Shown piece after piece: positions 25,144 through 44,927 of a DNA stretch of 46,771 nt (position 1 is its first letter; each line of letters opens with the position of its first letter). Made by a program: the position numbers and the translations under genes. This stretch comes from Thioalkalivibrio sulfidiphilus (GTDB lineage Bacteria; Pseudomonadota; Gammaproteobacteria; Ectothiorhodospirales; Ectothiorhodospiraceae): contig NZ_KB898945.1 in NCBI RefSeq assembly GCF_000377945.1, forward strand, positions 1-46,771, read 5' to 3'. Below the pieces are notes generated by a model. The model was given only the letters and a program-made list of their open reading frames with translations, was not told where the DNA came from and made no database searches.

Positions 25144-26897
25144 CGGTTCGCAAGTTCGACGCACTCATCATCGGCGCTGGCGGCGCCGGCCTGCGCGCGG
25201 CACTGCAGCTGGCCAACGCGGAGGCCAGCGTGGCGGTGGTCTCCAAGGTCTTTCCCACCCGCTCCCACACCGTGGCGGCCCAGGGTGGCGTGAATGCCGC
25301 ACTGGCCAACGTGCTGCCGGACAGCTGGCACTGGCACATGTACGACACGGTCAAGGGCAGCGACTGGCTGGGCGACCAGGACGCCATCGAGTACATGTGC
25401 CGGGCGGCACCCAAGGTGGTCTACGAGCTGGAACACTTCGGCGTGCCGTTCTCGCGCCTGGACAACGGCAATATCTACCAGCGGGCTTTCGGCGGCCAGA
25501 GCCAGCACTTCGGCAAGGAGCAGGCGGCGCGCACCTGCGCGGCGGCGGACCGCACCGGCCACGCCATCCTGCACAGCCTCTACCAGCAGAACATCCGCGC
25601 CAAGACCCACTTCTTCGACGAATACTTCGCCGTGGACCTGCTCAAGGACGAGGAGGGCTATGTGCTCGGCGCGCTGGCCTTCGAGATCCTCACCGGCGAA
25701 CCCATCGTCATCGAGGCCAAGACCACGCTGCTGGCCACCGGCGGCGTGGGCCAGCTGTTCCGCACCTGCACCAACGCCCTGATCAACACCGGCGACGGCA
25801 TGAGCATGGCCCTGCGCGCGGGCATCCCGCTACAAGACATGGAGTTCTTCCAGTTCCACCCCACGGGCATCGCCGGGCGCGGCATGCTCATCACCGAGGG
25901 TGCCCGTGGCGAGGGCGGCTATCTGCTCAACGCCGATGGCGAGCGCTTCATGGAGCGCTATGCGCCCAACGCCAAGGACCTGGCCAGCCGCGACGTGGTG
26001 AGCCGCGCCATCTACACGGAGGTGAAGGAGGGCAGGGGCTGCGGACCGGAGAAGGATTACGTGCTGCTGCAGCTGACCCACCTGGGCCGGGACAAGATCA
26101 TGCAGCGTCTCCCGGGCATCCGGGAGACCTGCATCACCTTCCTGGGACTCGATCCCATCGATCACCCCATTCCGATCTATCCGACCGCCCACTACACCAT
26201 GGGCGGCATTCCCACCAACCGCTTCGGACAGGTGGTGGTGCCGGTCAAGGACACGCCGGAGGATCCGGTGCCGGGTCTGTATGCGGCGGGCGAGGCGGCC
26301 TGTGTCTCGGTGCACGGTGCCAATCGCCTGGGCGGCAACTCCCTGCTGGATATCCTGGTGTTCGGCCGCGCCGCGGCCAATCACATCATCGATGTGCTCG
26401 AGCACAACCGATACCACCGTCCCCTGCATCAGCCGGCCGTGGATGCGGCCCTGGAGCGCTTCCACCGCTGGGATCGCAAGGGCGACGGCGAGCACGTGGA
26501 TCAGCTGCGCCAGGAACTGCGTAAGGTCATGGAGGCCCACTGCGGCGTGTTCCGGACCGAGGAGGTCATGGCCGAGGGCGTGGCCAAGGTCAAGGCCATC
26601 GCCGAGCGGGTCAAGGACGCAGTGCTTCGGGATCACAGCAAGGTCTTCAACACTGCGCGCGTGGAGGCCATGGAGTTGGAAAACCTGGTGGACTGCGCGC
26701 TGGCCACGGTGCAGTCGGCCCTCGGTCGCAAGGAAAGCCGCGGCGCCCACTCGCGCATCGACTATCCCGATCGCGACGACACCCACTGGCTCAAGCACAC
26801 CCTGTACTTCAAGCACAGCGACAGCCTGGATTACAAACCGGTGCGCACCAAGCCCATGACGGTCGAGAGCTTCCCACCCAAGGTTCGGGTGTACTGA
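25134..26897 (+). CDS. sdhA: succinate dehydrogenase flavoprotein subunit
   Basis: The catalytic subunit that oxidises succinate to fumarate, 587 residues. FAD-binding: [15 protein letters not shown] and the covalent-flavin histidine in SHTVAAQGG. Substrate and capping domain: [22 protein letters not shown] and the catalytic Arg in SRAIYTEV. C-terminal [16 protein letters not shown]. In most genomes sdhB follows directly. Here sdhB is about 14.4 kb downstream, and sdhA is followed by a hairpin and an unrelated OmpA-like gene. Covalent flavin attachment would need SdhE, which is encoded beside the distant sdhB. Confidence 0.97.
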
Positions 26898-26909
26898 TTC
26901 ATCATTGGT

Positions 26910-26941
26910 GACCGGGTTTCTGTTCGAACAGGGACCCGGTC
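26910..26941 (+). terminator. hairpin downstream of sdhA
   Basis: GACCGGGT (26910-26917) and ACCCGGTC (26934-26941) pair perfectly around a 16-base loop. The downstream sequence TGTTCC is only weakly T-rich, so termination strength is uncertain. It marks the end of the sdhCDA unit. Confidence 0.5.
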
Positions 26942-27008
26942 TGTTCCTGGCGATTCTGTAAAAAATTCCGTCGTTTCTTCTCCTTGAATTGCCTACGCAT
27001 TTTTGATC

Positions 27009-27032
27009 TGACTCAATGGCATCGTTGAGTCA
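27009..27032. promoter_or_regulatory. palindromic operator upstream of OmpA-like gene
   Basis: Perfect TGACTCAA-N8-TTGAGTCA in an AT-rich 281-bp gap. TTGAGT (27025-27030) could be a -35 box with ATTCAT 17 bp later, so the palindrome may overlap the promoter of the gene at 27179. The regulator is unknown. Confidence 0.45.
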
Positions 27033-27178
27033 TTGATCTATGCTTTAATTCATCGTGCAAGCATTGAACATCTTTGACTCTGTCGTGTCACAGGCAGGGC
27101 AGATGATGTGCACGGAAAGACTCGATTCCCCCGTTATCTCACACCCGCAATGAACACCCATCCCGCAAGGAGACAACA

Positions 27179-27862
27179 ATGAAGAAGAAACTCATCCAAG
27201 TGACTGCAGGTCTGGGCTGCATGCTTGCAGCCGGTCTGCTGGTCCAGGGCCACGCGCATTCCGATCGCGAAGAAATCAAGGGCACGGCCGCCTACGTGCT
27301 CGACGCCCGCGGAAACGTGGTGCGCAACGCCACCGGTGATTGCTGGCGCACCATCCACTGGACCAAGGAACTGGCCGTCAAGGGCTGCGATCCGCACCTG
27401 TTCCCCGAGCGCGCCGAAGCGCCGCCTCCGCCCCCGCCCGCCGCACCGGCCCCGGCACCGGCTCCGCCGCCCCCGCCGCCCCGCCAGGTGCAAGAGACCC
27501 GCACCCTGGGTGCAGCCGCCCTGTTCGCCATCAACAGTGCGGCCATCAGTCCCCAGGGCAGGGCAGAACTGGACCGGCTGGTGAGTGACCTCTCGCGCCT
27601 GGATAACGTCCAGAACATCCACGTGGTGGGCCACACCGACAACACCGGCGCTGCCGACTACAACATGGATCTGTCCAAGCGCCGTGCCGAGAGTGTGAAG
27701 GCCTACCTGGTGGAGAAGGGCATCCGTGCCGACCTGATCACCACCGAGGGCCGGGGTATCACCCAGCCGGTGGCCAGCAACGCCACCACGGAAGGTCGTG
27801 CCCAGAACCGTCGCGTGGAGATCACCATCCGCGGCACCGAGACCGTCACCGTGCCACGCTGA
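27179..27862 (+). CDS. OmpA-family peptidoglycan-binding protein
   Basis: 227 residues. A signal peptide (MKKKLIQVTAGLGCMLAAGL, cleavage near GHAHS) is followed by a small domain with two cysteines (TGDCWRTIHW and VKGCDPH), a long Pro-Ala linker (about 80-105), and a C-terminal OmpA/MotB domain: FAINSAAISPQGRAELD, IHVVGHTDNTGAADYN, LSKRRAESVKAYLV, GRAQNRRVEI. The OmpA_C domain binds diaminopimelate in peptidoglycan. There is no beta-barrel, so it is periplasmic or tethered to the cell wall. AAGGAGA precedes ATG 27179. It is followed by a strong terminator. Confidence 0.9.
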   Translation: MKKKLIQVTAGLGCMLAAGLLVQGHAHSDREEIKGTAAYVLDARGNVVRNATGDCWRTIHWTKELAVKGCDPHLFPERAEAPPPPPPAAPAPAPAPPPPPPRQVQETRTLGAAALFAINSAAISPQGRAELDRLVSDLSRLDNVQNIHVVGHTDNTGAADYNMDLSKRRAESVKAYLVEKGIRADLITTEGRGITQPVASNATTEGRAQNRRVEITIRGTETVTVPR

Positions 27863-27894
27863 GGGATCAGTCAGGCTACTTGGCTGAGCCTGAG

Positions 27895-27936
27895 GGCCGC
27901 TGCCGGAGAAATCATCCTCCGGCAGCGGCCTTCTTC
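27895..27936 (+). terminator. intrinsic terminator of OmpA-like gene
   Basis: Perfect 14-bp arms GGCCGCTGCCGGAG (27895-27908) and CTCCGGCAGCGGCC (27917-27930), with an 8-base loop, followed by TTCTTCATTTC. Confidence 0.9.
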
Positions 27937-28150
27937 ATTTCTGGCTGCTAGATTCATCGGGGCCTTGTGACATCTGCCACAGGATTACGGTCCCACGTGC
28001 CGTGCCCAGGTCTGGCATCAGCGACCCGAGGCTCAGTAAGATGCCAGCCACTGTGTCGTTACGCCGCGTCAATTCAGATCTGACCACCTCCGAGTGGCTC
28101 GGTGTGACCTCAATGCCCACAAGCCTCGGGCCCTTACCCCGGAGAGCGAC

Positions 28151-29284
28151 TTGCCCCTCGGACAATTGCTGATCATCCAGTACTGCACCCTCCTGGTCTT
28201 TTCAGCCCTGTACACCCCTCAGCCCCTGCTGCCTGTACTGGCGGCGCATTTCGGTGTGGGCGAGGCGCGGGCCTCGCTGCTGATCACCGTGACCCTGCTG
28301 CCCCTGGCTGTGGCGCCCATCGCCTACGGCTTCCTGTTACAGAAGATGGCGGCCCGTCGTCTGCTGCGGGTCTCCATCTGGTTGCTGGCCGCCTCCCAGG
28401 TGGTCGTTTATTTCGTGGATCGCTTCGATGTGCTGCTGGGCCTGCGCCTGCTGCAGGGTATGGTGATCCCGGCCATGCTCACCGGCCTCATGACTTACCT
28501 GGGTGCCAGCGCCGGACCCGGTCGCATCGCCCAGGTGATGGCTGTCTACGTGGCATCCACCGTGATGGGTGGTTTTCTGGGGCGCGCCCTGTCGGGGGTG
28601 ATCGCGGCCAACTTCGGCTGGCGCTGGTCCTTCCTGCTGCTGGGCCTGGCCACGGTGCTCGCAGCCCTGTTGCTCACCCGCCTGAAGTCCGATCCGCCGG
28701 TGAGCTTCCAGCGACTGCGCCTGTCCGCCGTGATCGAGATCCTGCGTCAACCCAGTTTCCTCAGGATCTATGGGGTTGTGTTCTGCGCCTTCGGGGCCTT
28801 CGCGTCCCTGCTCAACTTCCTGCCTTTCCGCCTGGTGGAGCTGGGCACGGGCATGAGCGAGAGCGGCATCGGCCTGATGTACTCCGGCTACCTCATGGGG
28901 GTGGTGGTCTCGCTCGTTTCCCTGCGCCTGGCCTCAAGGATCGGGGGCACGGTGAATGCCATGCTGGTGGGCACCCTGATCCTGGTCACGGCCCTGCTGT
29001 TCTTCGCTGCGAGCCCGGTGTGGGTGATGTTCCTGGGCATGTTCGTGCTGTGTTCAGGCATGTTCATGATCCATTCCCTGGCCCCCGGGGTGCTGAACCA
29101 GCAGTCCGGAGAACACCGGGGGGTGGTGAACGGCCTGTACATCGCCTTCTACTACGCCGGTGGCGCAATCGGCTCCTTCCTGCCGGGTTTCCTGTACCAC
29201 GGTTTCGGCTGGTATGTGTATCTGGGGTCCCTGGCCCTGGTGGTGGGCCTGGCGGGTAGCCTGCTTTGGGGGCTCAGGCGGTAA
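28151..29284 (+). CDS. MFS transporter
   Basis: About 378-397 residues with twelve predicted transmembrane helices; loop 2-3 is short and basic (QKMAARRLLRVS). RLLQGMVIPAMLTGLMTYL and GWRWSFLLLGLATVLAALL fit the drug/metabolite efflux branch (YnfM-like, arabinose-efflux type). There is no ATG at the expected N-terminus: TTG 28151 has GGAGAG 4 bp upstream and starts just before helix 1, whereas GTG 28094 opens the frame without a ribosome-binding site. The substrate is unknown. It stands alone between terminators. Confidence 0.8.
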   Translation: MPLGQLLIIQYCTLLVFSALYTPQPLLPVLAAHFGVGEARASLLITVTLLPLAVAPIAYGFLLQKMAARRLLRVSIWLLAASQVVVYFVDRFDVLLGLRLLQGMVIPAMLTGLMTYLGASAGPGRIAQVMAVYVASTVMGGFLGRALSGVIAANFGWRWSFLLLGLATVLAALLLTRLKSDPPVSFQRLRLSAVIEILRQPSFLRIYGVVFCAFGAFASLLNFLPFRLVELGTGMSESGIGLMYSGYLMGVVVSLVSLRLASRIGGTVNAMLVGTLILVTALLFFAASPVWVMFLGMFVLCSGMFMIHSLAPGVLNQQSGEHRGVVNGLYIAFYYAGGAIGSFLPGFLYHGFGWYVYLGSLALVVGLAGSLLWGLRR

Positions 29285-29302
29285 CAATCCCGATTTCCTG
29301 TG

Positions 29303-29475
29303 TATACTTATCTAGATGACATATCTGTGACGCCGAACCATCGGCCAGCAGTCGTGTCATTCATTCTGGTCAGGGAGTTGCACAAGTAAGGGACGCAAGT
29401 CGTTCACGCCGCCAGCCGGACCAAGATGCCTCGCAGGGTGCCCCGGTCCGGATCGGTGATTATTCAAACTGATCC
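29303..29475. promoter_or_regulatory. upstream region of TAXI operon with motif and hairpins
   Basis: TATACT (29303-29308) resembles a -10 box. It is followed by ATCTAGATGAC (29310-29320), the 11-mer also found near sdhC and sdhB. Further down are the hairpin CCGGACC-N22-GGTCCGG (29416-29451) and the inverted repeat GGATCGGT-N10-ACTGATCC (29450-29475). The 217-bp gap holds no gene. Confidence 0.45.
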
Positions 29476-29501
29476 ATAAAATAAGATAGCGGAGGGGTAT
29501 C

Positions 29502-30542
29502 ATGATTTTCTCCAAGACCCGTTTCCTCAGTACCCTGGTGGCCATCGGTGCCACCTTTGCCCTGTCACTGGCGGCCATCCAGCCCGCCGAGGCCCAGCGT
29601 CAGACCATCCGTTTCGCCACATCCAACGTCGGCTCCTACGGCTATGCCGTGGGTAACGTGATCTCCGAGATCCTGCAGCAGAACCTGGGCCGCGGTTATG
29701 CCGTGGTGGTGCAACCCTATCCCTCCACCTCCGGCGCCATGCGCTCGGTTATGGATGGCGACGGCGAGTTCGGCTATACCGCCGACGTGGGCATGCGCAG
29801 CCTGTACGACGGCGAGCGCCCCTACGACAACTACACCCCCCGCCGCGGCATGCTGGTGCACACCCTGTACGTGTATCCCATGGAGACCTTCATGCTGGTG
29901 GCCGACCGCCGCAAGGGTGAGTTCAACTCCTACAAGGACTTCGACGGCAAGCCCGGCTACTACACCCCCGCCGGCTTCATGAACTGGCTCAACATGCGCC
30001 GCGTGTTCGCCGCCCTGGGCTATGAGTTCAACCACGTGGAGATCGACAACACCACCGTGGCGGATGCCTTCGAGGCCAACACCATCGCCGGTTCCGCGGG
30101 CTATACCACCGCCGGTGTCTCCCTGCCCACCTACTGGCGCGAGGCCGAGCTGCGCGCCAACCTGGCCGCGGTGAATCCCTCCGAAGAGGAGATGGCGAAG
30201 CTGCGTGCTGCCGGCCTGAACCCGGTGCAGGTGGATCCCTCCAAGGCCTTCAGCCAGGAACTGGGTGTGGACACGATCTACGCAGTGCCCATCTACTTCG
30301 CCTACAACGTGCGCGCGGACATGGATGCTGACCTGATCAAGAACATCCTGGACATCCTGTACAAGAACAAGGACAAGCTGGTGGAAGGTGACGCAGGCTT
30401 CGGTCCTCTGGCTGACGACTTCGTGGGTACCCAGGCCGCCGGCGTGGCCGCCAACCCCGATATCCCGGTGCATCCCGGCCTGGCCGCGTTCCTGAAGGAA
30501 CACGGCGCCTGGAATGACAGCTGGACCATCGCGGGCCAGTAA
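29502..30542 (+). CDS. TAXI-family TRAP transporter substrate-binding protein
   Basis: 346 residues, periplasmic. A signal peptide ends near IQPAEAQ; the mature N-terminus QTIRFATSNVGSYGYAVGN is typical of TAXI proteins, which capture carboxylates for TRAP permeases. YPSTSGAMRSVMDGDGEFGYT is the second conserved block. CGGAGGGG lies before ATG 29502. A terminator separates it from the permease gene 88 bp downstream, as expected when the binding protein is made in excess. The substrate cannot be read from sequence. Confidence 0.92.
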   Translation: MIFSKTRFLSTLVAIGATFALSLAAIQPAEAQRQTIRFATSNVGSYGYAVGNVISEILQQNLGRGYAVVVQPYPSTSGAMRSVMDGDGEFGYTADVGMRSLYDGERPYDNYTPRRGMLVHTLYVYPMETFMLVADRRKGEFNSYKDFDGKPGYYTPAGFMNWLNMRRVFAALGYEFNHVEIDNTTVADAFEANTIAGSAGYTTAGVSLPTYWREAELRANLAAVNPSEEEMAKLRAAGLNPVQVDPSKAFSQELGVDTIYAVPIYFAYNVRADMDADLIKNILDILYKNKDKLVEGDAGFGPLADDFVGTQAAGVAANPDIPVHPGLAAFLKEHGAWNDSWTIAGQ

Positions 30543-30561
30543 GCTCTCAGCTAACCAAACC

Positions 30562-30602
30562 ACAGGGCGGGTAACGCAAGCAACGTTCCCGCCCTGTTTT
30601 GT
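30562..30602 (+). terminator. intrinsic terminator between TAXI protein and TRAP permease
   Basis: ACAGGGCGGG (30562-30571) pairs with CCCGCCCTGT (30588-30597) and is followed by TTTTGTTGT. Partial read-through would set a high binding-protein to permease ratio. Confidence 0.85.
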
Positions 30603-30629
30603 TGTGACACTGGAAAGCGGGGGCAGACT

Positions 30630-32939
30630 GTGTCCTTACTCAAGAAGACGCTCACCTCGGAAGTGGCGTATGTCCTCATGGGCGCGGCTTTTCTCGTCGC
30701 CCTGTATCAATACCTGTTCAGCGGTGAGACGGCCTACCTCTGGCTGGTAGCGCCGGCACTCGCGCTGCAGATCCTGCATCTGCAACTGCAGGGGCGCTTC
30801 TATCCCGGGTTTTCAGCCGCCGCGCGGCAGGTACTCGCGCTGGTCTACCTGGGCCTCTGTATTTACGCCCTCTATTACCTATGGCCGGGCATGCATGACA
30901 TCGGCACCTGGCGCCAGATCGCCCACACCGATGTGACCTTGTATGTCGGCCTGGCGATGCTTTTGCTGGCTGCGGAGATGCTGCGCCAGGGCGGCGTGCT
31001 CACACTGCGCAACGTCACCTTCATCCTGGGCGCCGTGCTGTTCGTCTCGCTGATGCATTATTTCCTGACCGGTGCCGGCGGGCAGCGCTACCTCGCGGTG
31101 CGCCTGGTGCCCCTGGCGATGATCATCCAGATTCTGTACCTGTATCAGAATCAGTACCTCTACTCCCGTCTGCCCGCAGTGATCAATCACACGGCGGTGA
31201 TCGTCTATATCGGCATCTGCCTGTATACGACCTACTACCTGACGGCCAATTTCGAAGACATCGCCATCTGGCGCCAGGCGGCCTACACCACCCATGACTT
31301 CGTGGTCGGTGTGCTGATCTTCCTGGTGGTGATGGAGCTCTCGCGCATCATCCACCCGGTGCTGTTCTGGGTGAACGTGGTGCTGGTGTTCTACGCCCTC
31401 TGGGGCCATCTCAGCCCCATCGATTTCTTCTGGCATCCCAGCGTCAACCTGGATCGCATCATCACCTCCAGCACGGTGGAATTCTCCACCGGCGTCTACG
31501 GGCGCTATTCGCAGCTGTCGCTCACCCTGATCGCCGCGTTCCTGCTGCTGGCGGCGGTGGCCAGCGGGTTCGGCGCACAGCGCGCCCTGGTGGACGTGAT
31601 GCGAAGGCTCGCCGGTCGCTCGCGCCATACCATTCCCCAGACCGCGGTGCTGGCCTCGGTGTCCGTGGGCATGGTGAGCGGTTCCGGCTCCGCCAACACG
31701 GCGGTGACCGGCAGTTTCACCATCCCGCTGATGAAACGTTATGGCGTACCCGGCACCTTCGCCGGGGCGGTAGAGACGGCCGCCTCCATGGGCGGTCTCA
31801 TCATGCCGCCGTTGATGGCGGTGGCCGGCTTCCTCATGGCCGAGTTCCTGGGCGTGCCCTACTGGGACGTGGTGGTGCGCGGCTTCGCCGTGGCCTTCGT
31901 GTACTTCGTGTCCCTGATCCTGGCGGTCTACCTGCTCAGTGTGAGGCTTCTGCCCAGCACGCCGATCCAGGTACCGACGGTGCCGCTGTATGACTGGATG
32001 CGCACCACCATCTTCTTCTCGGGGATCATCTTCCTGATCCTGCTGATGAGCACCTTTGGCTATGGCGCCCTGCGCGCCGCGCTGTACACGGCGGGTGCGA
32101 TCCTGGCGATGCTGCTGCTCACCTGGCTGTACTTCAAGTACGTGCTCAAGGACCCCAAGCTCCAGGAAGAGACGCTGCTCGGCAACCTGCGCACGGTGAT
32201 CGAGACCCACGCGGAGATGACCGCCTACCTGACCCTGCTCATGGCCACCCTCGGCATCATGATCGGGCTGTTCACGGTCACCGGTTTCATCACCCGCATG
32301 GGCTCCCTGCTGCTGCAGCTGGGTGACTTCCACATCGTCGCCATGATCCTGATGGCCTGGATCTTCGGCTGGCTGGTGGGCACCGGTCTGCCGCCCACGG
32401 CCACCTACATCATCGTCGCGGTGATCATCGTGCCGCCCCTGCGCCAGATGGGCGTCGATCCCTGGGTGGCACATTTCTTCGCCTTCCTGCTGGCCATCTG
32501 GGGCGAGCTCTCGCCGCCCACGTCACTGACTGCAGCGGTGGCGGCCAAGATCGCCGAGGCCTCGTTCATGAAGACCATGTGGGAGGCGCTCAAGATCTGT
32601 CTGCCCATCACCATCATGTCCTTCGCCATCTTCGTGCGCTCCGACATGGTCGTGAACCCGGGCTGGGCCCAGATCACGGATACCCTGCTGGTGGCGGCGG
32701 GTACGGCGGGCGTGACCTTTGCCACCTTCGGCCGCTTCTTCGTCGGTCGACTCAACAACTGGGGCATGCGCATTTTCATGCTGGCCCTGTCCCTGGTGGT
32801 GGTGTTCTACCCGCATGATGGTGTGGCCACCGTGGCCGCCGTCATCGTGGTGCCGCTGATCATCCTTGGTGTGATTCGGCACCGCACGCTGGCGGCGCCG
32901 CCGGAGGTTCCTGCCGCCAGCACCGCCACGGGGAAATAG
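30630..32939 (+). CDS. TRAP transporter fused permease (DctQM type)
   Basis: 769 residues with many transmembrane helices: a small four-helix (DctQ-like) region precedes a large DctM-like domain. Typical fused-permease blocks are VASVSVGMVSGSGSANTAVT-like sequence near residue 345, ETAASMGGLIMPPLMAVAGF, and GTGLPPTATYIIVA near 590. Such permeases pair with TAXI binding proteins and use Na+ or H+ gradients. The N-terminus holds extra helices with internal similarity (ALYYLWPGMHDIGTWRQIAHT near 70 and TYYLTANFEDIAIWRQAAYT near 200). GTG 30630 follows a GCGGGGG stretch. The dehydrogenase gene begins 3 bp after the stop, so it is probably the same transcript. Confidence 0.92.
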   Translation: MSLLKKTLTSEVAYVLMGAAFLVALYQYLFSGETAYLWLVAPALALQILHLQLQGRFYPGFSAAARQVLALVYLGLCIYALYYLWPGMHDIGTWRQIAHTDVTLYVGLAMLLLAAEMLRQGGVLTLRNVTFILGAVLFVSLMHYFLTGAGGQRYLAVRLVPLAMIIQILYLYQNQYLYSRLPAVINHTAVIVYIGICLYTTYYLTANFEDIAIWRQAAYTTHDFVVGVLIFLVVMELSRIIHPVLFWVNVVLVFYALWGHLSPIDFFWHPSVNLDRIITSSTVEFSTGVYGRYSQLSLTLIAAFLLLAAVASGFGAQRALVDVMRRLAGRSRHTIPQTAVLASVSVGMVSGSGSANTAVTGSFTIPLMKRYGVPGTFAGAVETAASMGGLIMPPLMAVAGFLMAEFLGVPYWDVVVRGFAVAFVYFVSLILAVYLLSVRLLPSTPIQVPTVPLYDWMRTTIFFSGIIFLILLMSTFGYGALRAALYTAGAILAMLLLTWLYFKYVLKDPKLQEETLLGNLRTVIETHAEMTAYLTLLMATLGIMIGLFTVTGFITRMGSLLLQLGDFHIVAMILMAWIFGWLVGTGLPPTATYIIVAVIIVPPLRQMGVDPWVAHFFAFLLAIWGELSPPTSLTAAVAAKIAEASFMKTMWEALKICLPITIMSFAIFVRSDMVVNPGWAQITDTLLVAAGTAGVTFATFGRFFVGRLNNWGMRIFMLALSLVVVFYPHDGVATVAAVIVVPLIILGVIRHRTLAAPPEVPAASTATGK

Positions 32940-32942
32940 CCC

Positions 32943-33905
32943 ATGCATATCGTGATCCCTGACGATTACCAGGACTGCGTGCGCGAGCTTGCCTGCTTCC
33001 AGCGGCTCAAGGGCCACCGGGTCACCGTGTACAACGACACGGTGCGCGACCTGGACACCCTGGTGGAGCGCTTCAGTGACGCCGAGGCCCTGGTGCTGAT
33101 CCGGGAGCGTACGCCCATCACCGAGGCCCTGCTGGAGCGTCTACCAAAGCTTCGGCTCATCAGCCAGACCGGCAAGGGCATCGCGCACGTGGACCTGGAC
33201 GCCTGTACCCGACGCGGCGTGGCCGTGGCCACCGGCATCGGTGCCCCGTACGCGGCGGCCGAACTGACTTGGGGCCTGGTGCTCGCCGCCATGCGTCACA
33301 TCCCCGACCAGGTGGCCGCCATGCGGTCGGGCCGCTGGCAGACCCGGCTCGGCACTGGCCTGCGCGGTCGCACCCTGGGTGTCTTCGGCTACGGCAAGGT
33401 CGGCAGCCTGGTGGCCAGCTACGGGCGCGCCTTTGGTATGCACCTGCTGGTCTGGGGCCGGGAAGGCAGCCTGGAACGGGCGGCGGCGGCGGGTATCGAC
33501 ACCGCCGAGAGCCAGGAGGACCTGTTCGCCCGCGCCGATGTGCTGTGTCTACACCTGGGGCTCAATCCGGGCACCCGGGGCATCGTCAGGGCAAAGCATC
33601 TGGCCCTCATGAAACCCACGGCGCTGCTGGTGAATACCGCGCGCGCCGAGTTGATCGAGCCCGATGCCCTGGTGAACGCGCTCAGGGCGGGACGACCCGG
33701 CATGGCCGCCGTGGATGTCTACGAGGACGAACCAGTGCGCGATCACCCGCTGCTGCATCTGGACAACGCCCTCTGCACCCCCCACCTGGGCTACGTGGAG
33801 CGGGACGGCTATGAACTCTACTTCGGGGCAGCCTTCGACAACGTGCTGGCCTTCGCCGAGGGTTCACCGCGCAATCTGTCCAATCCGGAAGTGATGCAGG
33901 CCTGA
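32943..33905 (+). CDS. D-2-hydroxyacid dehydrogenase (NAD-dependent)
   Basis: 320 residues of the D-isomer-specific family that reduces 2-ketoacids to 2-hydroxyacids or the reverse. Rossmann motif GVFGYGKVGSLVA (GxGxxG) near residue 145, catalytic Arg in NTARAELIEP, Glu in DVYEDEPV and His in TPHLGYVE. Specificity is unknown; phosphoglycerate dehydrogenase is unlikely since there is no C-terminal regulatory domain. It lies 3 bp after the TRAP permease stop, so it probably acts on the imported carboxylate. Confidence 0.9.
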   Translation: MHIVIPDDYQDCVRELACFQRLKGHRVTVYNDTVRDLDTLVERFSDAEALVLIRERTPITEALLERLPKLRLISQTGKGIAHVDLDACTRRGVAVATGIGAPYAAAELTWGLVLAAMRHIPDQVAAMRSGRWQTRLGTGLRGRTLGVFGYGKVGSLVASYGRAFGMHLLVWGREGSLERAAAAGIDTAESQEDLFARADVLCLHLGLNPGTRGIVRAKHLALMKPTALLVNTARAELIEPDALVNALRAGRPGMAAVDVYEDEPVRDHPLLHLDNALCTPHLGYVERDGYELYFGAAFDNVLAFAEGSPRNLSNPEVMQA

Positions 33906-33930
33906 GACCTGCATCCCTGTCGAGTCACAC

Positions 33931-34745
<815 letters not shown>

Positions 34746-34821
34746 GATAAAAAACCGTTGCGGGCATGCGCCCGGCGGCACAGTCAAGCGATGCGTGTCA
34801 TCAGGACACAAGGAAGACGTC

Positions 34822-35724
34822 ATGGAAGTCCCATCCCACCCCTTCGTGAACCCGGAGCAGGTCCCTGCGCTGGGATCTTCCCGCCCGGCAGATGCGGCCA
34901 GGCCGCGTCTGCGTGCGGTGCCTGCATCCACGCAGCCGGTGGTGCTGGTTGCCCAGCACAACCGCATCAGTCAGCGCCTGCTGGTCAGCCTGCTTTCCCG
35001 CCGTGGTTATGATCCCTGCCTGAGCATGGGGCCTCATCAGGCCTTCGAGATGATCCAGCGTCATCCCGGGCGCTTCGTCATGGCCATCCTCGACCTGCGT
35101 GACCCCCTGGCGGGCGAGCTCGATGAGCTGCGCGCCTGCAAGGCCCGGATGGGTGAGGCCTGCCCGCCGCTGATCGTGCTGGGTAATAATCCGAGCCCCG
35201 ACGCGCGTGCCGCCTGCCGGGATGCCGGCGCCGACTTCTACCTCACGGACGGCCTGCGCGATGGCCTGCTGAGTCGTGCCGTGGATTTCATTGCCCATTC
35301 GCGCCTGCCCATGGGATACCGCCTGCCGCAGAGCAGCGAGCCAGCCCCATCCTTACTGGATGACGCCACCGTGGAGCGCCTGCTGTCCATGGACGAGGGC
35401 GGCGGTTTCCTGAAGGAAGTCTTCAGGGATCTGCGCGATGACGTGCGAGAACACCTCTGGGTCATGGACCGTGCCCTGAAACGCCAGGACTACGCCCTCT
35501 GGCGCAGTGGTCTGCACGCCCTGAAGGGGGCGGCGCTCAGTGCCGGTGCCGCGGCGCTTACGAAGCTGTGCATCGAGGGTGAAGCCCTGTGCCAGCAGGC
35601 CCTGCAGGCAGGTCTGTGCCTGGAACATCTTGCGCGCATCCGCAGGGCCTGGGAAGACACCCAGACGGTCCTGCAGCAGATCATCGAGGATGCCCGCGCT
35701 CAGCGGGTCTCTGGTGCCGGCTGA
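34822..35724 (+). CDS. degenerate receiver plus Hpt phosphotransfer protein
   Basis: 300 residues. A receiver-like domain (about 38-157) keeps the phosphoacceptor-like Asp 91 (MAILDLRDP), but has AQHN (44-47) in place of the usual acidic DDN pocket and YLTDGL where the conserved Lys is expected, so it is probably not a normal phosphorylation switch. The C-terminal Hpt domain (about 175-290) has an intact HxxKG box, LHALKGAALSAGAAAL, with His 232 as phosphorylatable histidine. The arrangement resembles the C-terminal part of hybrid sensors such as RpfC, without membrane or kinase parts. AAGGA lies upstream of ATG 34822. No partner kinase is nearby. Confidence 0.8.
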   Translation: MEVPSHPFVNPEQVPALGSSRPADAARPRLRAVPASTQPVVLVAQHNRISQRLLVSLLSRRGYDPCLSMGPHQAFEMIQRHPGRFVMAILDLRDPLAGELDELRACKARMGEACPPLIVLGNNPSPDARAACRDAGADFYLTDGLRDGLLSRAVDFIAHSRLPMGYRLPQSSEPAPSLLDDATVERLLSMDEGGGFLKEVFRDLRDDVREHLWVMDRALKRQDYALWRSGLHALKGAALSAGAAALTKLCIEGEALCQQALQAGLCLEHLARIRRAWEDTQTVLQQIIEDARAQRVSGAG

Positions 35725-35786
35725 TCGAACTCCAGAGGATCCAGCTCCTGTTCGCGCCCGGCACCCGGCGGACGCAGTAGAAGGGT

Positions 35787-35805
35787 GGTGAGATATGCGG
35801 GCTAG
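35787..35805. repeat. solo terminal repeat of the 262-bp element
   Basis: GGTGAGATATGCGGGCTAG, identical over 19 bp to the right end at 18234-18252. No partner repeat was found nearby. On the minus strand its CTAG provides the stop codon of the short tail frame at 35802-35886. Confidence 0.7.
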
Positions 35806-35886
35806 CAACCCAGGGCGCGGAAATCGTTGATGCGTGCCGGGGCGGATTCCGCCACCTGCACGAAGTCCGGAAAGTCTTCCAGCGCA
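35802..35886 (-). pseudogene. possible gene remnant after the HlyD-type gene
   Basis: The frame continues in phase past the HlyD-type TGA and reads LNDALEDFPDFV..AESAPARINDFRALGC (start of the tail NDALEDFP, end NDFRALGC) to a TAG inside the terminal repeat. The composition is coding-like, with no resemblance to HlyD proteins. It may be the 3' tail of a lost gene; not identified. Confidence 0.35.
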
Positions 35887-37077
35887 TCATTCAACCCTCA
35901 GGCGCAGCCGTACGCCGTCGCTGATGTCGCGGTCCGGGTGCACCACCACCCGTTCGCCCGCCTCGAGACCGGTGCTGGCCTCGCTGTGGAGGGCGCCACG
36001 GCGCCCGATACCGACCGTGCGCAGTCTGGCCCGGCCATCCTCCAGGACGAACACGGCCCAGTCTCCCTGATGGCGGAACAGCGCGCTGGTGGGCACGCGC
36101 AGGACATCGTCAGACTCCCAGAGCACGAAGCGGGCATTGACCCGGTAGCCGTCGCCCAGCCGCGCCCAGTCCTCGTGCGCCGAGGTGATGTCGGCGATGA
36201 CCCAGACCCGTTGTTCCTCCACCCCCAGGGCGGAGATCTTGGTAAACCCGGTGGGCTCGACACGACGCACGCGGCCCTCCAGTTCCCGGGTCTCGCCCCA
36301 GCGCTCGAAGATCACCCGCATGCCCGGCTCGATGCGCACCGCATCAGCGGAGAGCACGTCCACGGCCACCTCAAGGCGACCGGGGTCACCGATCTCCAGG
36401 ATTGGCTCGCCGGGTTGCACCACCCGGGCGCTCTCGAAATGTCGGCGCAGCACGAGTCCGCTCACCGGGGATCTCAGTTCCAGGACGGCGAAGGCATCGG
36501 GGTCCTGACCATCGGTATGGGCGAGGGCAGCCTGTGCGGCGTCCCGCTGGGCGATGGCGGTCTGCACGCGAAAGCGCGCGGAGCGGGTCAGGGCCTCGGC
36601 CTGGTCCAGTTCTGTGGCGGCCCGGTCCAGGGTGCTGCGGGAGATGAGCTGCTGTTCGGCCAGGCCCTTGAGCCGTTCATATTCCTCCCGGGCGAACAGG
36701 GCCTGGGCCGCCAGGGCGCGCACTTCCGCTCGGGCGGTTTCCAGGGCGGCCTCTGCCGCGGCCAGGCGCGCACGGGCCTCCTGCAGGCTGCGTGCATCGA
36801 GCGCGGGCGAGGCCGGGGCGTCCAGGGTGACCAGTACATCGTCCAGTCGCACCGCGTCACCCACCTGCAGGTGGATGCGCCGGGCCTGGGCAGTCAGCGG
36901 GGCCGAGACCTCGTAGCGGTCGATCACCCGGGTGCGGCCTTCCTCCTCGACGGTGATGGCGAGATGCCCCCGGGTCACGGGCTCCACGTCCACCAGCACC
37001 GGCGTCGGCCTGAAGCCCAGCACGATGAGCCCGGCAATGATCAGCGCCACAACAACGATGAGAATCTTCTTGATCAT
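35887..37077 (-). CDS. HlyD-family periplasmic adaptor of ABC exporter
   Basis: A membrane fusion protein of about 396 residues (from ATG 37077; TTG 37107 is an alternative giving 406). An N-terminal anchor IIKKILIVVVALIIAGLIV-like segment is followed by a lipoyl/barrel-sandwich half (RGHLAITVEEEGRTRVIDRY), a long helical hairpin rich in Ala, Arg and Glu (about 105-200), the second lipoyl half (LRSPVSGLVLRRHFE), and a beta-barrel with the WAVFVLEDGRARLRTVGIG end. It would bridge an inner-membrane transporter and an outer-membrane channel. It is last in the operon zapG-side ATPase/permease/adaptor; no TolC gene is in the window. Confidence 0.88.
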   Translation of the reverse strand: MIKKILIVVVALIIAGLIVLGFRPTPVLVDVEPVTRGHLAITVEEEGRTRVIDRYEVSAPLTAQARRIHLQVGDAVRLDDVLVTLDAPASPALDARSLQEARARLAAAEAALETARAEVRALAAQALFAREEYERLKGLAEQQLISRSTLDRAATELDQAEALTRSARFRVQTAIAQRDAAQAALAHTDGQDPDAFAVLELRSPVSGLVLRRHFESARVVQPGEPILEIGDPGRLEVAVDVLSADAVRIEPGMRVIFERWGETRELEGRVRRVEPTGFTKISALGVEEQRVWVIADITSAHEDWARLGDGYRVNARFVLWESDDVLRVPTSALFRHQGDWAVFVLEDGRARLRTVGIGRRGALHSEASTGLEAGERVVVHPDRDISDGVRLRLRVE

Positions 37078-37154
37078 CCAACGATCCAGGTCCAGTTCAA
37101 AACGCAACGATACAAGAAAAGCCCCTTGCGCATCCCTATCAGCAATTCACACTG

Positions 37155-37221
37155 ACTTGCCACTTGCCACTTGCCACTTGCCACTTGCCACTTGCCACTT
37201 GCCACTTGCCACTTGCCACTT
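37155..37221. repeat. tandem heptamer array (ACTTGCC)9
   Basis: Nine perfect ACTTGCC units (37155-37217) plus ACTT, ending at the base next to the stop codon (TAG, 37222-37224) of the minus-strand permease. On that transcript the units read GGCAAGT directly after the stop. It lies within the permease-adaptor gap. Same heptamer and orientation as 5181-5213. Confidence 0.95.
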
Positions 37222-39581
37222 CTACTCCCTGCTCTTGAGCACTTCCACCAGATCCAGCCGGTTCAGGCGGCGCAGCACCACCAGTGCCGACAGCACAGTG
37301 GCGACCAGGATCACTGCGGCGGCGAAGGCGTAGGCATCGGGGGTGATGATCAGGGGTACCCGGTAGAGATCGGAATCCATGGTGCCCACCAGCAGGTAGA
37401 CCAGGGCCTTGCCGATCAGGAAACCCGGCAGGATGGCCGCGAGGGCGATGAGAAACAGTTCGCCCAGCAGGATATAGCTGATCTCGCCCCGGGTGAGTCC
37501 CAGCACCCGCAGGCTGGCCAGTTCGCGGGCACGTTCCGTGAGCGCGATGCGCGCGCTGTTGTAGACGACGCCGAAGGCGATGCTGCCGGCCAGCAGGGTG
37601 CTGAAGAACGCGAAGGTCAGCACGATCTCGGCCATGGAGTCCATAAAGTTCTGGATGGCCTTGAGCCGGTCGGTGACACCGGCCACCCGGGGAACATCCT
37701 TGAGGACGTCGATAATCACATCGCGGTGCTCATGATCCACCGCGAGCCAGACCCCGGAGATGGCCGTGCCTTCGCGCATGATCCGGTTCAGGGCGTCCAG
37801 GTCCATGTAGGCGGAGGCGCCGGTGAATTCCCGGATCACGCCGGTGACCGGTACCGGCAGCTGTTCACGACGCCCCTCCAGGAATTCTACCCACACCGTG
37901 TCTCCTGGCCGGGCATCCAGGTGATCGGCCAGGAAATCGTTCAGCACCAAGCCTTCCGGGGGAAGAGTGACCACCTGAAGCCGGTCATCCAGAATGCGGT
38001 GCAGGCGGCTGTCCGGCTCTACCCCGTGGATGGCGGTGCGGTAGATGGCCTGTCCCTTGCTCAAGCGCACGGCGGCGCTTCGAAACGGTTCCACGTGATC
38101 CACGCCGGACAGGGCGGCGAGTTCGTACATGGCGCGCCGGGAGGTGGGTTCCGTGAACACCACGGTCAGGTCGTCCCGCTGGGCCTGCCCGTACTGGACC
38201 TTGATGAGATAGGTGATGGCGCCTTCCTGGTAGCCGCCCAGCACCAGGATGCCGCAGGCGAAGGCGATGCCGGTGACGGACAGCAGGGCCTTGAACGGGC
38301 GGCGCTCGATGTTGCGCAGGATCATGCGGCTGGGCTGGGAGAACAGGCGCTGCAGGCCCAGGCGTTCCACGAGCGTTGCGCGAAACACAGGCGCGGGTTC
38401 CGGGCGCATGGCCTCGGCCGGCGGGATGCGCACCGCCCGCACCAGGGCCATCGCGGTGCCCAGCAGGCCCGCGGCCAGGGTGACCAGGGTGCCCAGGGCC
38501 ACGCTGCGGGCCTGCAGCTGCAGTTCCAGGTAGGGGAAGCGGAAGAAGTCCTGGTACAGGGCCGCCATCATCGAGCCGAGCCACAGCCCCACCGCCGTGC
38601 CCAGCATCAGGCCGATGACCAGGATCACCAGCACCATCTGGGCGTAGTGCAGGCCCACGTGGAGATTGCTGTAGCCGAAGGCCTTGAGGATGCCCAGCTG
38701 GTCACGCTGGGTATTGATCAGCCGCGTCAGCACCACGTTGAGCAGAAAGGCCGCCACCGCCAGGAAGATGGCGGGGAACACCGTGGCCATGGTTCGCAGC
38801 TGCCCCAGCTCCACGTCCAGATAGCGGTGGGAGAGCTGATCCTCGCGGCCCACGGCACCCTGGCCGCCGTAGGGGGCGAGCAGGGCATCCAGTCGGTCGA
38901 TCACATCGCCGCTGCGTGCGTCCCGGGTCAGGGTGAGCACCAGGTCGTTGAAGGCGCCGTCCATGTCGAAGGCGGCGGCCAGCTGGCTGCGGTTCATCCA
39001 CAGGATGCCTAAACGGGCGAAATCCGGGAACAGTTCGCCGGGGGCCACGTGGTAGATGTATTCCGGCGAGAGCACGATGCCCACGATCTCGATGTGCTGC
39101 AGGCGGCCGTTGATGATCGCGCCGATGCGGTCACCGGGCACGAAGCCATGGGCCTGGGCAAAGGCCTCGTTGACCACCGCCTCGCCCGAGCGTCCTGCCT
39201 CCGGCAGCCGGCCCGTGCGCAGGAACAGGCGATTGAGTTCCGAGTTGCGGCCGTCGGGCAGGGAGATGAGGATGCCGGTGGCAGGATCGACGAAACCGGG
39301 GATGTCCAGGTTCGCTCCGGAGACCACCCGCGTCTCCACCTGCTGAACCCCGGGGATGTTCTCCACCGCCTCACGCAGGGATTCGGGGGCTCGTTTCACC
39401 GTGACGAAGATGTCCGCGAATCGGTAGTCCCGGTAGTAGGCGTCCCGGGTGAGGGACAGGGCATCCAGGGAGGTGAGCGACATGACCAGGGTGGCCATGC
39501 CGCCAGCGATCACCACGGCAATGGCGAGCACCTGGCCGCGCATGTGCCAGAGCTCCCGCAGCAGCTTGCGATACAGGGCGC

Positions 39582-39585
<4 letters not shown>
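37222..39585 (-). CDS. FtsX-like ABC transporter permease (double-domain)
   Basis: 787 residues. An N-terminal transmembrane segment ([18 protein letters not shown]), a large periplasmic region (MacB-PCD type), then an FtsX domain near residues 270-390 ([35 protein letters not shown]), a second periplasmic region, and a second FtsX domain near 655-780 ([20 protein letters not shown] and [14 protein letters not shown]). It is probably an exporter or extractor of lipids or other envelope substrates with the MacB-like ATPase; the substrate is unknown. The start overlaps the ATPase stop (ATGA), showing coupling. Confidence 0.9.
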
Positions 39586-40304
<719 letters not shown>

Positions 40305-40330
40305 GGCCCCGTGATCATGGTCCCGGTGCT

Positions 40331-40945
40331 TCAGCCACGTGCCTGAACCTTGTCCTCTTTGGACTCGCCGGTATCGGGTTCAGATCTCCCCTCGGTGGGC
40401 CGGTCGGCGTCTTCGGTTGCGGTGGCGCCGTGCTCGTCGCGCCGGGCGGTCACCGGACGCTCAGGTGTCTCCTCCAGCTCCACATGCTCGGGGATGTGGG
40501 GGGCATCGCCCATCATGTGCTCGTCGTCGTCGAGCACGCGCTTGGTGCCTGCGGTGGTTTCCTGCTGCTTATCCTTCTCCTCGGAGGCGCCGCTGGCGGC
40601 TTCCGGGGGCACCGGGCGGGAGCGTCCTTCCAGCAGGGCGCCGGGGTGATCCGGCAGAAGGCGTTGCGCCGGGGCATCGGCCAGGCGGCTGTAGCTCTCG
40701 GAGAGGTGGTCGTAGAGATCCCGGTAGGAACCGGCCATGGAAGTGAACAGGCTGGCGGTCTTCTCGAAGTGCTGGTTCACCGACTGACGGTAGTCGGCCA
40801 TCTCCTGGCGCTGTTTTTCCAGCTCGGCCTTGAGGGCCTGCGCTTCCTGGCGTCCATGGGAGGTCTGACGGCCGAGGAGGAAGCCCGCGACAGCGGCTGC
40901 GATCAGGCCCAGGAGGATGAGGATCCAGGTGGTGGTGGCAGTCAT
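40331..40945 (-). CDS. zapG: ZapG/YhcB family (DUF1043) protein
   Basis: 204 residues. One N-terminal transmembrane helix ([21 protein letters not shown]) is followed by a coiled coil ([20 protein letters not shown]) and the family signature [26 protein letters not shown]. YhcB/ZapG links cell-wall synthesis to division in E. coli. The C-terminal third is acidic and Glu/Thr-rich and looks disordered. ATG 40945 has GGAG 5 bp upstream; ATG 40966 lacks a ribosome-binding site. It precedes the ABC exporter genes by 26 bp. Confidence 0.9.
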
Positions 40946-41159
40946 GGGGGCTCCGGATGATTTCATTAGATCGTTTAATCAGTTTGAACCACCCCTTCGA
41001 CCCGACTCAAGCGCATATGTTGCGCGGCGTGCGACTAAACTGACAGATATCAAATCCCATGCAGACGGCCGAGGCTGATCATGCTGGCTGGGTGCGGGGG
41101 CCGTGGCCGGACCGAGGTGGCATGCTTATGGACCACGGTGCGTTCGTGTCACGGGTCGG

Positions 41160-41228
41160 AGTCAGGTGCAGTGAACCTGACTGTATTCTGTTTGCTCTAA
41201 GGTGCATAATGCCAGTCATATAGATGAC
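41160..41228. promoter_or_regulatory. candidate sdhB regulatory region
   Basis: The 337-bp gap 40946-41282 holds no gene I can support. It contains perfect AGTCAGGT-N7-ACCTGACT (41160-41182), CATAAT (41205-41210, possible -10) and GTCATATAGATGAC (41215-41228), an imperfect palindrome sharing ATNTAGATGAC with the sdhC and TAXI upstream regions. The first palindrome lies where an activator could bind. Confidence 0.45.
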
Positions 41229-41282
41229 CTGAGAGACTGCGGGTCAAGAACAATAACCCCACCAGCGCCGAGGAGTCGTCCG

Positions 41283-41984
41283 ATGCGTTTCTCCATCTAC
41301 CGCTTCAACCCGGAAACCGACACCGAACCCTACATGCAGGATTTCGAACTTCCGGACTCCCAGGTGGAACCGGGCATGATGCTGCTGGAGGCGCTGCTTC
41401 GGCTCAAACGCCAGGACGAGACCCTGAGTTTCCGACGCTCCTGCGGCGAGGGGGTGTGCGGCTCCGATGGCATGAACATCAACGGCACCAACGGACTGGC
41501 CTGCGTCACCCCCTTGGCAAGCCTCAAGCAACCCATCACCCTGCGACCCTTCCCGGGCATGCCGGTGATCCGCGACCTGATCGTGGACATGGGTAACTTT
41601 TACAACCAGTACCGAAAGGCCAAGCCCTACCTGGTGATCAATGATCCGGTGCCGGAGGTGGAGCGCAAGCAGTCTCCGCAGGATCGCGAGAAGCTGGACG
41701 GCCTGTACGAATGCATCCTGTGCGGCTGCTGTTCCGCCTCCTGTCCCTCCTACTGGTGGAACCCGGACAAGTTCCTGGGTCCGGCCGCGTTGCTGCAGTC
41801 GGCCCGGTTCATCCTGGATTCCCGGGACCAGGCCACCAGCGAACGACTGGAGCAGCTGGACGATGCCTACAAGCTCTACCGTTGCCACACCATCATGAAC
41901 TGCGTGCAGGTCTGCCCGAAGGGCCTCAACCCCACCAAGGCCATCGGCGAGATCAAGAAGCAGATGCTCAAGCGCTCCCTGTGA
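41283..41984 (+). CDS. sdhB: succinate dehydrogenase iron-sulfur subunit
   Basis: The electron-transfer subunit of complex II, 233 residues. The [2Fe-2S] cysteines lie in CGEGVCGSDGMNINGTNGLAC (about 59-79; C-G-E-x2-C motif), and the [4Fe-4S] and [3Fe-4S] ligands in CILCGCCSASCP and CHTIMNCVQVCPKG. GAGGAG lies upstream of ATG 41283. It overlaps sdhE by 4 bp. It is separated by 14.4 kb from sdhCDA and has its own putative regulatory region. Confidence 0.97.
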   Translation: MRFSIYRFNPETDTEPYMQDFELPDSQVEPGMMLLEALLRLKRQDETLSFRRSCGEGVCGSDGMNINGTNGLACVTPLASLKQPITLRPFPGMPVIRDLIVDMGNFYNQYRKAKPYLVINDPVPEVERKQSPQDREKLDGLYECILCGCCSASCPSYWWNPDKFLGPAALLQSARFILDSRDQATSERLEQLDDAYKLYRCHTIMNCVQVCPKGLNPTKAIGEIKKQMLKRSL

Positions 41985-42262
41985 CCACGGACGAACAACT
42001 CGCCAGCAGCGACGTGGAGGCCCTGCGCCGCCTGCGCTGGAGTTGCCGGCGCGGCATGCTGGAACTGGACCTGCTGCTGGAGGCCTTCCTCAAGCACGGT
42101 TTTGTGAAACTGGACGCCCGGGGTCGCGAGACCTTCGAGCGTCTGCTGGACTATCCCGATACCACCCTGCTGCAACTGCTCATGGGGCAGATGCAGTCCA
42201 GCGACAGGGACGTCGCCCATGTGGTCGAATTCATCCGCCAGACCGCTCGTCATCCATCCTGA
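41981..42262 (+). CDS. sdhE: FAD assembly factor SdhE
   Basis: 93 residues. SdhE attaches FAD covalently to SdhA; the RGxxE motif is present (SCRRGMLELD). The small helical fold, the LLEAF and FERLLDYPDTTLLQLL parts, and the position between sdhB and ygfX are typical. GTG 41981 overlaps the sdhB stop (GTGA), with AAGCGCTC upstream but no clear ribosome-binding site, so it is probably coupled to sdhB translation. It overlaps the next gene by 44 bp. Confidence 0.94.
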   Translation: MTTDEQLASSDVEALRRLRWSCRRGMLELDLLLEAFLKHGFVKLDARGRETFERLLDYPDTTLLQLLMGQMQSSDRDVAHVVEFIRQTARHPS

Positions 42263-43136
42263 GCCATCCCGCTACCTGGCCGCATGGCTGGTGCTCGTGC
42301 ACGGCCTGGCCGGGGCAGGGCTGATCGCTGCCGCGATGCCCCTGGTCGCTGCCGTCGGCGTCGGTGTTCTGCTGTTTTCCTTGAGGCTTCATCTGATGCG
42401 CCTGGGATTCCTCGCCGGGCGTCCCGTGATCCAGGGCCTGCGCCTGGAGGTGGATGGCCGGTGTCGCGTGCAAACCGCCGACGGGCGCTGGCGCCCGGCG
42501 GTCATCCTGCCCGGCAGTTTCTGCGCCCCGTGGCTGTGCGTGCTGCAGCTGCGGGTGGAGGGGCGCTGGCAGAGCCTCAGCCTGGCGCCGGACAGCCTAC
42601 CAGCGGATCAGCTGCGGCGGCTGCGTATGGGCCTGCTGGCCCTGCGCGCGAATTCGCCTGAGCACGCCCGGGGTATTCGGGCCGGCCTGGTGCGCCTTGG
42701 TATACTGCGCGGCAAACACCCTGTGGAGACACTGCCCATGCCCACCGATCAGGAGCGGCTGGAAGCCCTGCTCAGTGACGATCCGGACCACGTCTACAGC
42801 GACGAGGAACTGGACGCCATCGAGGCCATCGATCCCGAGATGGCCCTGCGCATCGACCGCGTGCAGACCCAGGCCCGTCGCCAGGGCGGAAACGTGGTGG
42901 CCGAGGGTCCCATCGACGAGGCCGTGGTACGGGAGGCGGTAGAAGAGGCGCGCAAGATCCTCATGCAGGACGGCGGCGACATCGAGTTCGTCGCCATCGA
43001 GGACCGCACCGTGCGCGTGCGCCTCAAGGGCGCCTGCGTGGGCTGCCCCCGTTCCACCCTCGATCTCCGAAACGTGGTGGAGCGCCTGGTGCGATCCAGG
43101 GCGCCGGGGGTGGCTAGGGTGGTGAATGAATTTTAA
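42219..43136 (+). CDS. YgfX-like membrane domain fused in frame to NifU-type Fe-S scaffold
   Basis: 305 residues in one open frame with no stop. Residues about 15-150 resemble YgfX (two helices YLAAWLVLVHGLAGAGLIAA and PLVAAVGVGVLLFSL, then a soluble domain with LEVDGRCRVQTADGRWRPAV), the usual partner encoded after sdhE. Residues about 173-305 form a NifU C-terminal-type scaffold: DGGDIEFVAIEDRTVRV and the CxxC in GACVGCPRSTLDL. ATG 42219 has AGGGA upstream. Internal ATG 42738 (GGAG 9 bp upstream, extended -10 TGGTATACT at 42698) could express the NifU part alone. Either a true fusion or two genes in phase with a lost ygfX stop. Confidence 0.75.
   Translation: MWSNSSARPLVIHPEPSRYLAAWLVLVHGLAGAGLIAAAMPLVAAVGVGVLLFSLRLHLMRLGFLAGRPVIQGLRLEVDGRCRVQTADGRWRPAVILPGSFCAPWLCVLQLRVEGRWQSLSLAPDSLPADQLRRLRMGLLALRANSPEHARGIRAGLVRLGILRGKHPVETLPMPTDQERLEALLSDDPDHVYSDEELDAIEAIDPEMALRIDRVQTQARRQGGNVVAEGPIDEAVVREAVEEARKILMQDGGDIEFVAIEDRTVRVRLKGACVGCPRSTLDLRNVVERLVRSRAPGVARVVNEF
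42698..42706 (+). promoter_or_regulatory. extended -10 box before the NifU-type part
   Basis: TGGTATACT, an extended -10 motif inside the joint between the YgfX-like and NifU-type parts, 32 bp before ATG 42738. No convincing -35. It supports separate expression of the NifU-type domain. Confidence 0.35.
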
Positions 43137-43252
43137 GGTGCAATTCAAAATTCAAGATTCAAGATTCAAAGGTGCATGCCTCGATCTGATGCATCTTGAT
43201 TTGACGGGAGCATTTCCCCTTTGAATCTTGAATCTTAAATTTTGAATTCACC
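43137..43252. repeat. inverted arrays of heptamer NATTCAA filling a convergent gap
   Basis: The left arm 43137-43175 holds four NATTCAA units starting at the base after the NifU-type stop. The right arm 43216-43252 is nearly its perfect reverse complement and ends one base before the pgm stop codon. The spacer is about 40 bp. It occupies the whole 117-bp gap between convergent genes and can form a very long hairpin in either transcript. Confidence 0.93.
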
Positions 43253-43253
43253 A

Positions 43254-44927
<1,674 letters not shown>

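Follow-up and report, generated by a model that had tools for sequence, protein, structure and literature searches.

Introduction

The gene described here joins two protein families, of which the Nfu-type Fe-S carriers are represented in E. coli by NfuA, a protein with an N-terminal domain of its own. The second family, YgfX or CptA, was reportedly described by McNeil in 2013 as a membrane protein that binds SdhE. To our knowledge, the route by which clusters reach SdhB in bacteria is not settled.

In PMC8621075 the proposed type IV toxin-antitoxin activity of CptAB is disputed, and a two-hybrid assay of YgfX and YgfY in Shewanella gave no interaction. The biology of YgfX is therefore disputed, which weighs against the explanation preferred here. 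In yeast, loss of Nfu1 leaves both SDH activity and Sdh2 at low levels (PMC5014551). None of the papers searched contains both 'YgfX' and 'NifU', and no such fusion is mentioned in the opening lines of the abstracts listed.

Here we present a ygfX::nfu fusion from Thioalkalivibrio sulfidiphilus, which is a real and conserved joining of these two known families. Taken as a whole, the gene is rather likely to be a nested one that would give both a membrane-anchored YgfX-Nfu and a free Nfu, with the tethered form acting on SdhB. The locus was compared in an order sample of 47 genomes, comprising five of the window's genus (g1), one of g2, 30 of g3, one of g4 and ten of g5, and in a class sample of 369 genomes.

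Organization of the locus

The window (the whole stretch of DNA that was analysed, 46,771 nt) contains at 42219-43136 on the forward strand a single stop-free frame of 305 aa, read from ATG 42219. That YgfX and NifU parts share one frame had been stated in the preliminary description and is confirmed, the same frame recurring in 31 of 31 fused genomes. Because these 31 genomes agree, an assembly artefact is ruled out.

Directly upstream on the same strand lie sdhB (41283-41984), encoding the iron-sulfur subunit of succinate dehydrogenase (Pfam Fer2_3 and 4Fe-4S dicluster domains; NCBIfam NF004616 with 354.7 bits, cut-off 228), and sdhE (ygfY/cptB; 41981-42262), encoding the FAD assembly factor (Pfam Sdh5 PF03937, E 1.8e-21). 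The GTG start of sdhE overlaps the sdhB stop, and its 3' end extends 44 nt into ygfX. In the window sdhA is located at 25149-26894, 14.4 kb from sdhB; the stretch between them (26898-41282) holds OmpA-like, MFS, NMT1-like, DctM transporter, 2-hydroxyacid dehydrogenase, CMD, HlyD and ABC genes among others. The 1.1-2.1 kb upstream of sdhB in three other g1 loci (L078, L031, L032) yielded no sdhA, and the separation of sdhA from sdhB may be common to the window's genus. All g3 loci that reach far enough upstream have sdhA immediately 5' of sdhB, which strengthens the operon link. An AT-rich inverted repeat seen by eye right after the fused gene (43140-43255; ATTCAAGATTCAAGATTCAAAGG ... CCTTTGAATCTTGAATCTTAAATTTT) is perhaps a terminator or a small mobile repeat.

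The YgfX part (42219-42653, forward strand; residues 1-145) matches the Pfam family Cpta_toxin/YgfX, PF07254, over residues 15-140 (E 8.4e-10, 39.3 bits against a cut-off of 27.3), and an NCBIfam search with this part alone gave no matches. AlphaFold2 predicts a helix hairpin (residues 18-30 and 39-61), a small beta domain and a C-terminal helix (residues 129-145). By PF07254 the part is assigned to YgfX/CptA, with a predicted membrane location and a putative interaction with SdhE; a membrane tethering of Nfu would follow from the predicted two-helix N-terminus.

The linker (42654-42737, forward strand; residues 146-173) takes the place of the DNA between ygfX and nfu, since unfused relatives have their intergenic region at this position. 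Block means of pLDDT over residues 141-180 are 71, 52, 42 and 78, a low confidence over much of the linker.

Translation from the internal ATG 42738 would give an Nfu protein of 132 aa (42738-43136, forward strand; PF01106 with E 7.9e-22), composed of a helical N-terminal region and the NifU domain, and the separate nfu genes of relatives have an ATG that matches this internal one. The NifU domain (42927-43124, forward strand), supported by PF01106 and by Foldseek, covers residues 237-302 of the 305-aa frame (E 1.1e-20, 74 bits against a cut-off of 27) and includes a CxxC motif whose cysteines C273 and C276 are invariant in the nine-row alignment A1. It is the only PF01106 domain found in the genome by profile search; two A-type carriers are encoded elsewhere in the same genome. 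On the basis of PF01106 and CxxC the part is classified as a NifU-domain Fe-S carrier, with 4Fe-4S binding and transfer as predicted functions. Assignments to full-length NfuA (TIGR03341; 19.7 bits, cut-off 269.35) and to NifU proper (TIGR02000; 40.1 bits, cut-off 273.3; no NifU_N domain at E 0.01) were tried and rejected.

The AlphaFold2 model of the 305-aa protein (30-row alignment) has a mean pLDDT of 81.7 with residues 163-171 below 50, and its pTM of 0.45 is low, so that the model does not give the placement of the YgfX and NifU modules relative to each other. Foldseek delivered three matches at E <= 0.001, including CnfU of Arabidopsis (2z51, E 2.4e-05) and the C-terminal domain of human NFU1 (2m5o, E 1.4e-04). 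As all three are NifU domains, the YgfX part is without a structural match at this threshold.

Distribution and origin of the fusion

In the order sample this Nfu part is fused in each of the 31 genomes of g1 and g3 that retain it (three of g1 and 28 of g3). In the two remaining g1 genomes, G001 and G002, YgfX is retained and Nfu is reduced to a short remnant of its start, the inner -10 and ATG having likewise disappeared; no NifU domain was found in either of them (G001 is 82% complete), so that a tethered Nfu is dispensable in some genomes. The remainder of g3 consists of two incomplete genomes (66% and 80%) without a match. Among the ten genomes of g5 (Ectothiorhodospira-type), six have ygfX and nfu as separate neighbours and four gave no NifU domain; in the g5 loci examined sdhB and sdhA are encoded on the other strand and run towards ygfX-nfu. 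The sole g2 genome (G005) has a true NifU instead, and no NifU domain was found in the sole g4 genome.

In the class sample this type of Nfu was detected at E 1e-12 in 21 genomes, three within the family and 18 outside. Six of these 18, belonging to families f127 and f151, have the order sdhB-sdhE-ygfX-nfu with the genes separate. In the other 12 the YgfX profile found no ygfX beside nfu on the fetched stretch, which counts against the explanation by a tethered and a free product. No fusion outside g1 and g3 was observed among the sorted loci. At L115:280-1890 a 537-aa open frame runs over a separate nfu, with no Pfam domain except NifU; it is probably a chance opening in GC-rich DNA.

The preliminary description had held relatives with two separate genes and a stop before the NifU part to speak against a fusion. 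Such a stop is present in relatives outside the two genera and in none of the 31 fused genomes, and being confined to the former it indicates the probable source of the fusion and does not refute it. In f127 the ygfX stop follows closely on the last conserved part of the gene, and a TATAAT is present between this stop and the nfu ATG, preceded by the extended TG in L110 and L109 and not in L112. In L110 both genes are in one frame with a single TAA between them. G008 has the two genes in different frames, with the end of ygfX 4 nt and TATACT 29 nt upstream of the nfu ATG; in L025, L027 and L028, also with differing frames, ygfX runs past the start of nfu. In further unfused loci where ygfX adjoins nfu (L025, L026, L028, L111, L113, L096 and L114) a pattern search found no such -10 box, so that not every nfu of this kind has the promoter. 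The probable origin of the fusion is the loss of the stop, or a frame shift, between ygfX and an adjacent nfu that already had its own promoter, the intergenic DNA thereby becoming a flexible linker.

A tree of YgfX plus Nfu places two unfused f127 genomes beside g3. The SdhB plus Nfu tree (25 rows) needs two changes, and a single clade of fused genomes is not rejected (p-AU 0.142); the fusion may have one origin or two.

Start signals within the fused frame

An extended -10 box, a ribosome-binding site and ATG 42738 had been noted at the joint before, and all of them are present. The extended -10, TTGGTATACT, lies at 42697-42706 and a Shine-Dalgarno GGAG for the internal start at 42725-42728, both on the forward strand; the spacing from the -10 to ATG 42738 is 31 nt. 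A clear -35 was not seen by eye. TGnTATACT occurs in 29 of the 31 fused genomes, 28 of them with TTGn; G029 has TACACT and G019 no box. Wherever the box is present (29 genomes) it lies exactly 31 nt before the ATG, as against 29, 32, 33 and 35 nt in four unfused loci with TATAAT or TATACT. GGAG or GAGG precedes the ATG in 30/31 genomes, and the nfu ATG itself is likewise kept in 30/31. In G019 the inner -10, the Shine-Dalgarno and the ATG are lost together.

The codon before GnT ends in T in 30 of the 31 genomes, while encoding variously Val, Ile, Leu and, in one case, Ala; in g3, T is the most frequent third base of just 4 of 175 other four-fold columns. ATA is used at the joint in 29/31 fused genomes, as against 2 of 241 other Ile codons in the same genes. 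Since the amino acid varies with the third base fixed, and ATA is otherwise rare, the inner signals are conserved as DNA and not as protein.

Selection on the linker and alternative explanations

Pooled over 321 of the 465 pairs of fused genomes, which are non-independent, dN/dS amounts to 0.53 in YgfX, and to 0.16 and 0.08 in the N-terminus of Nfu and the NifU domain, respectively. The linker reaches 0.96, or 0.91 once the codons of the -10 and the Shine-Dalgarno are excluded. With a value of about 0.9, the residues of the linker are almost free to change. Still, no in-frame stop occurs in the linker of any of the 31 genomes, despite length changes (31, 36 and 37 codons). Stops appear in 9/31 genomes in the +1 frame, in 4/31 in the +2 frame and in 6, 10 and 24 of 31 in the frames of the opposite strand; as the low +2 value indicates that few stops are possible without such selection, this control is a modest one.

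Neutral evolution of 27-28 free linker codons was simulated on a third-position tree with 600 runs per setting at rate scales of 0.3, 0.5, 0.7 and 1.0. The probability of no stop anywhere was, in the order of these scales, 0.0067, 0.0017, 0.0017 and 0 with root L006, 0.042, 0, 0.0033 and 0 with root L005, and 0.0083, 0, 0 and 0 with root L016. On average 7.5-12.7 of the 31 simulated leaves (about 10/31) carried a stop, as against none observed. The simulation, which presumes a neutral rate and a gene tree, supports selection that keeps the frame open with a flexible linker. A chance open frame as the whole story is not accepted in view of the missing stops and the simulation, although openness alone is not proof, as the +2 frame and L115 demonstrate.

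These values bear on the strongest alternative, that the shared frame is incidental: Nfu would work only as the free protein made from the inner promoter, ygfX would be poorly translated and the read-through protein would be a tolerated by-product. The nearly unconstrained amino acids of the linker and the conservation of the inner signals as DNA agree with it, as does GC-rich DNA that can stay open (a +2 stop in only 4/31 genomes; the 537-aa frame of L115). The stops expected under neutrality in about ten of the 31 genomes, the survival of the frame through the changes in linker length, and a YgfX half that is under selection and has no other stop argue against it, and overall we regard an incidental frame as unlikely.

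G019 speaks on the same side as the linker residues. Its frame is still open and its CxxC intact despite the loss of the three inner signals, and its Nfu part has 15 private changes as against 5 in the sister genome G031, with 8 and 9, respectively, in YgfX. As the Nfu part changed faster once the inner signals were lost, free Nfu may matter most, which would also suit an incidental frame. In G019 it looks as though free Nfu had borne much of the constraint, or as though decay had set in, and selection on Nfu may be weaker where only the fused form exists. With its faster evolving Nfu part, G019 was rejected as a clean proof of a fusion-only product.

Retention of frame and CxxC in G019 could otherwise be taken to mean that only the fusion matters, with the inner promoter surviving as a relic. 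Such a relic should decay, as it did in G001 and G002, but the -10 is kept in 29/31 genomes, the preceding codon ends in T in 30/31 though its amino acid varies, and the Nfu part of G019 changes faster; a mere relic is thus very improbable. A toxin-antitoxin fusion, with YgfX as the CptA toxin and Nfu as its modulator, is scarcely credible: Pfam calls PF07254 a membrane-bound toxin component and, in PMC8621075, overexpression of YgfX or YgfY gives a growth defect in E. coli, but there the Shewanella pair fails the criteria for such a system, which could not be confirmed in Serratia either, and in the present locus YgfX is encoded next to sdhB-sdhE and an Fe-S carrier.

Two probable products and a possible role in complex II assembly

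Under the preferred explanation of a nested gene with two products, ribosomes starting at ygfX on the sdhB-sdhE transcript would synthesize YgfX-Nfu, predicted to be membrane-anchored; because no stop follows the ygfX start, any ribosome initiating there must make the fusion. The extended -10, Shine-Dalgarno and ATG in the linker would, judging from their conservation, direct a second, soluble Nfu of 132 aa. This free Nfu, left open by the preliminary description, is probably produced as well, and of the two products it may be under the stronger constraint.

The hairpin would anchor the fusion in the inner membrane, leaving Nfu on the cytosolic side, and the tethered Nfu would most likely deliver 4Fe-4S clusters to SdhB at the membrane, next to SdhE. 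SdhB, whose gene is the second one upstream, would be the nearest client, and free Nfu would serve others. An SDH-dedicated cluster donor, the guess of the preliminary description, is plausible from the gene order and by analogy with the dependence of yeast SDH and Sdh2 on Nfu1 (PMC5014551). The more specific proposal that selection keeps both a tethered SDH-dedicated donor, YgfX-Nfu, and a free general carrier from the inner promoter is put forward tentatively, as a possibility that we would not yet favour.

If true, this would be a bacterial Fe-S carrier physically tied to an assembly factor of a respiratory complex. The conserved YgfX-Nfu fusion behind sdhB-sdhE suggests that YgfX functions in the assembly of Fe-S clusters or complex II and not as a toxin. 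Natural variants for comparison are available as fused genes with the inner signals, a fused gene without them (G019) and genomes in which Nfu was lost (G001, G002).

Comparison with known systems

In common with E. coli NfuA, human and yeast NFU1 and plant CnfU (PF01106), the Nfu part has a NifU domain with CxxC; in contrast to NfuA, a short helical N-terminus stands in place of the N-terminal domain and a membrane YgfX lies in front. YgfX/CptA of the sdhE-ygfX pair resembles the YgfX part in its two predicted N-terminal helices, its small C-terminal domain and its position right after sdhE, whereas YgfX of the fused gene is without its own stop and carries an Fe-S carrier at its C-terminus. 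The separate-gene cluster of f127 and f151 has the same gene order, in f127 with a -10 before nfu at nearly the same distance, but there ygfX is closed by a stop of its own, whether or not it shares a frame with nfu, unlike in the fused gene described here.
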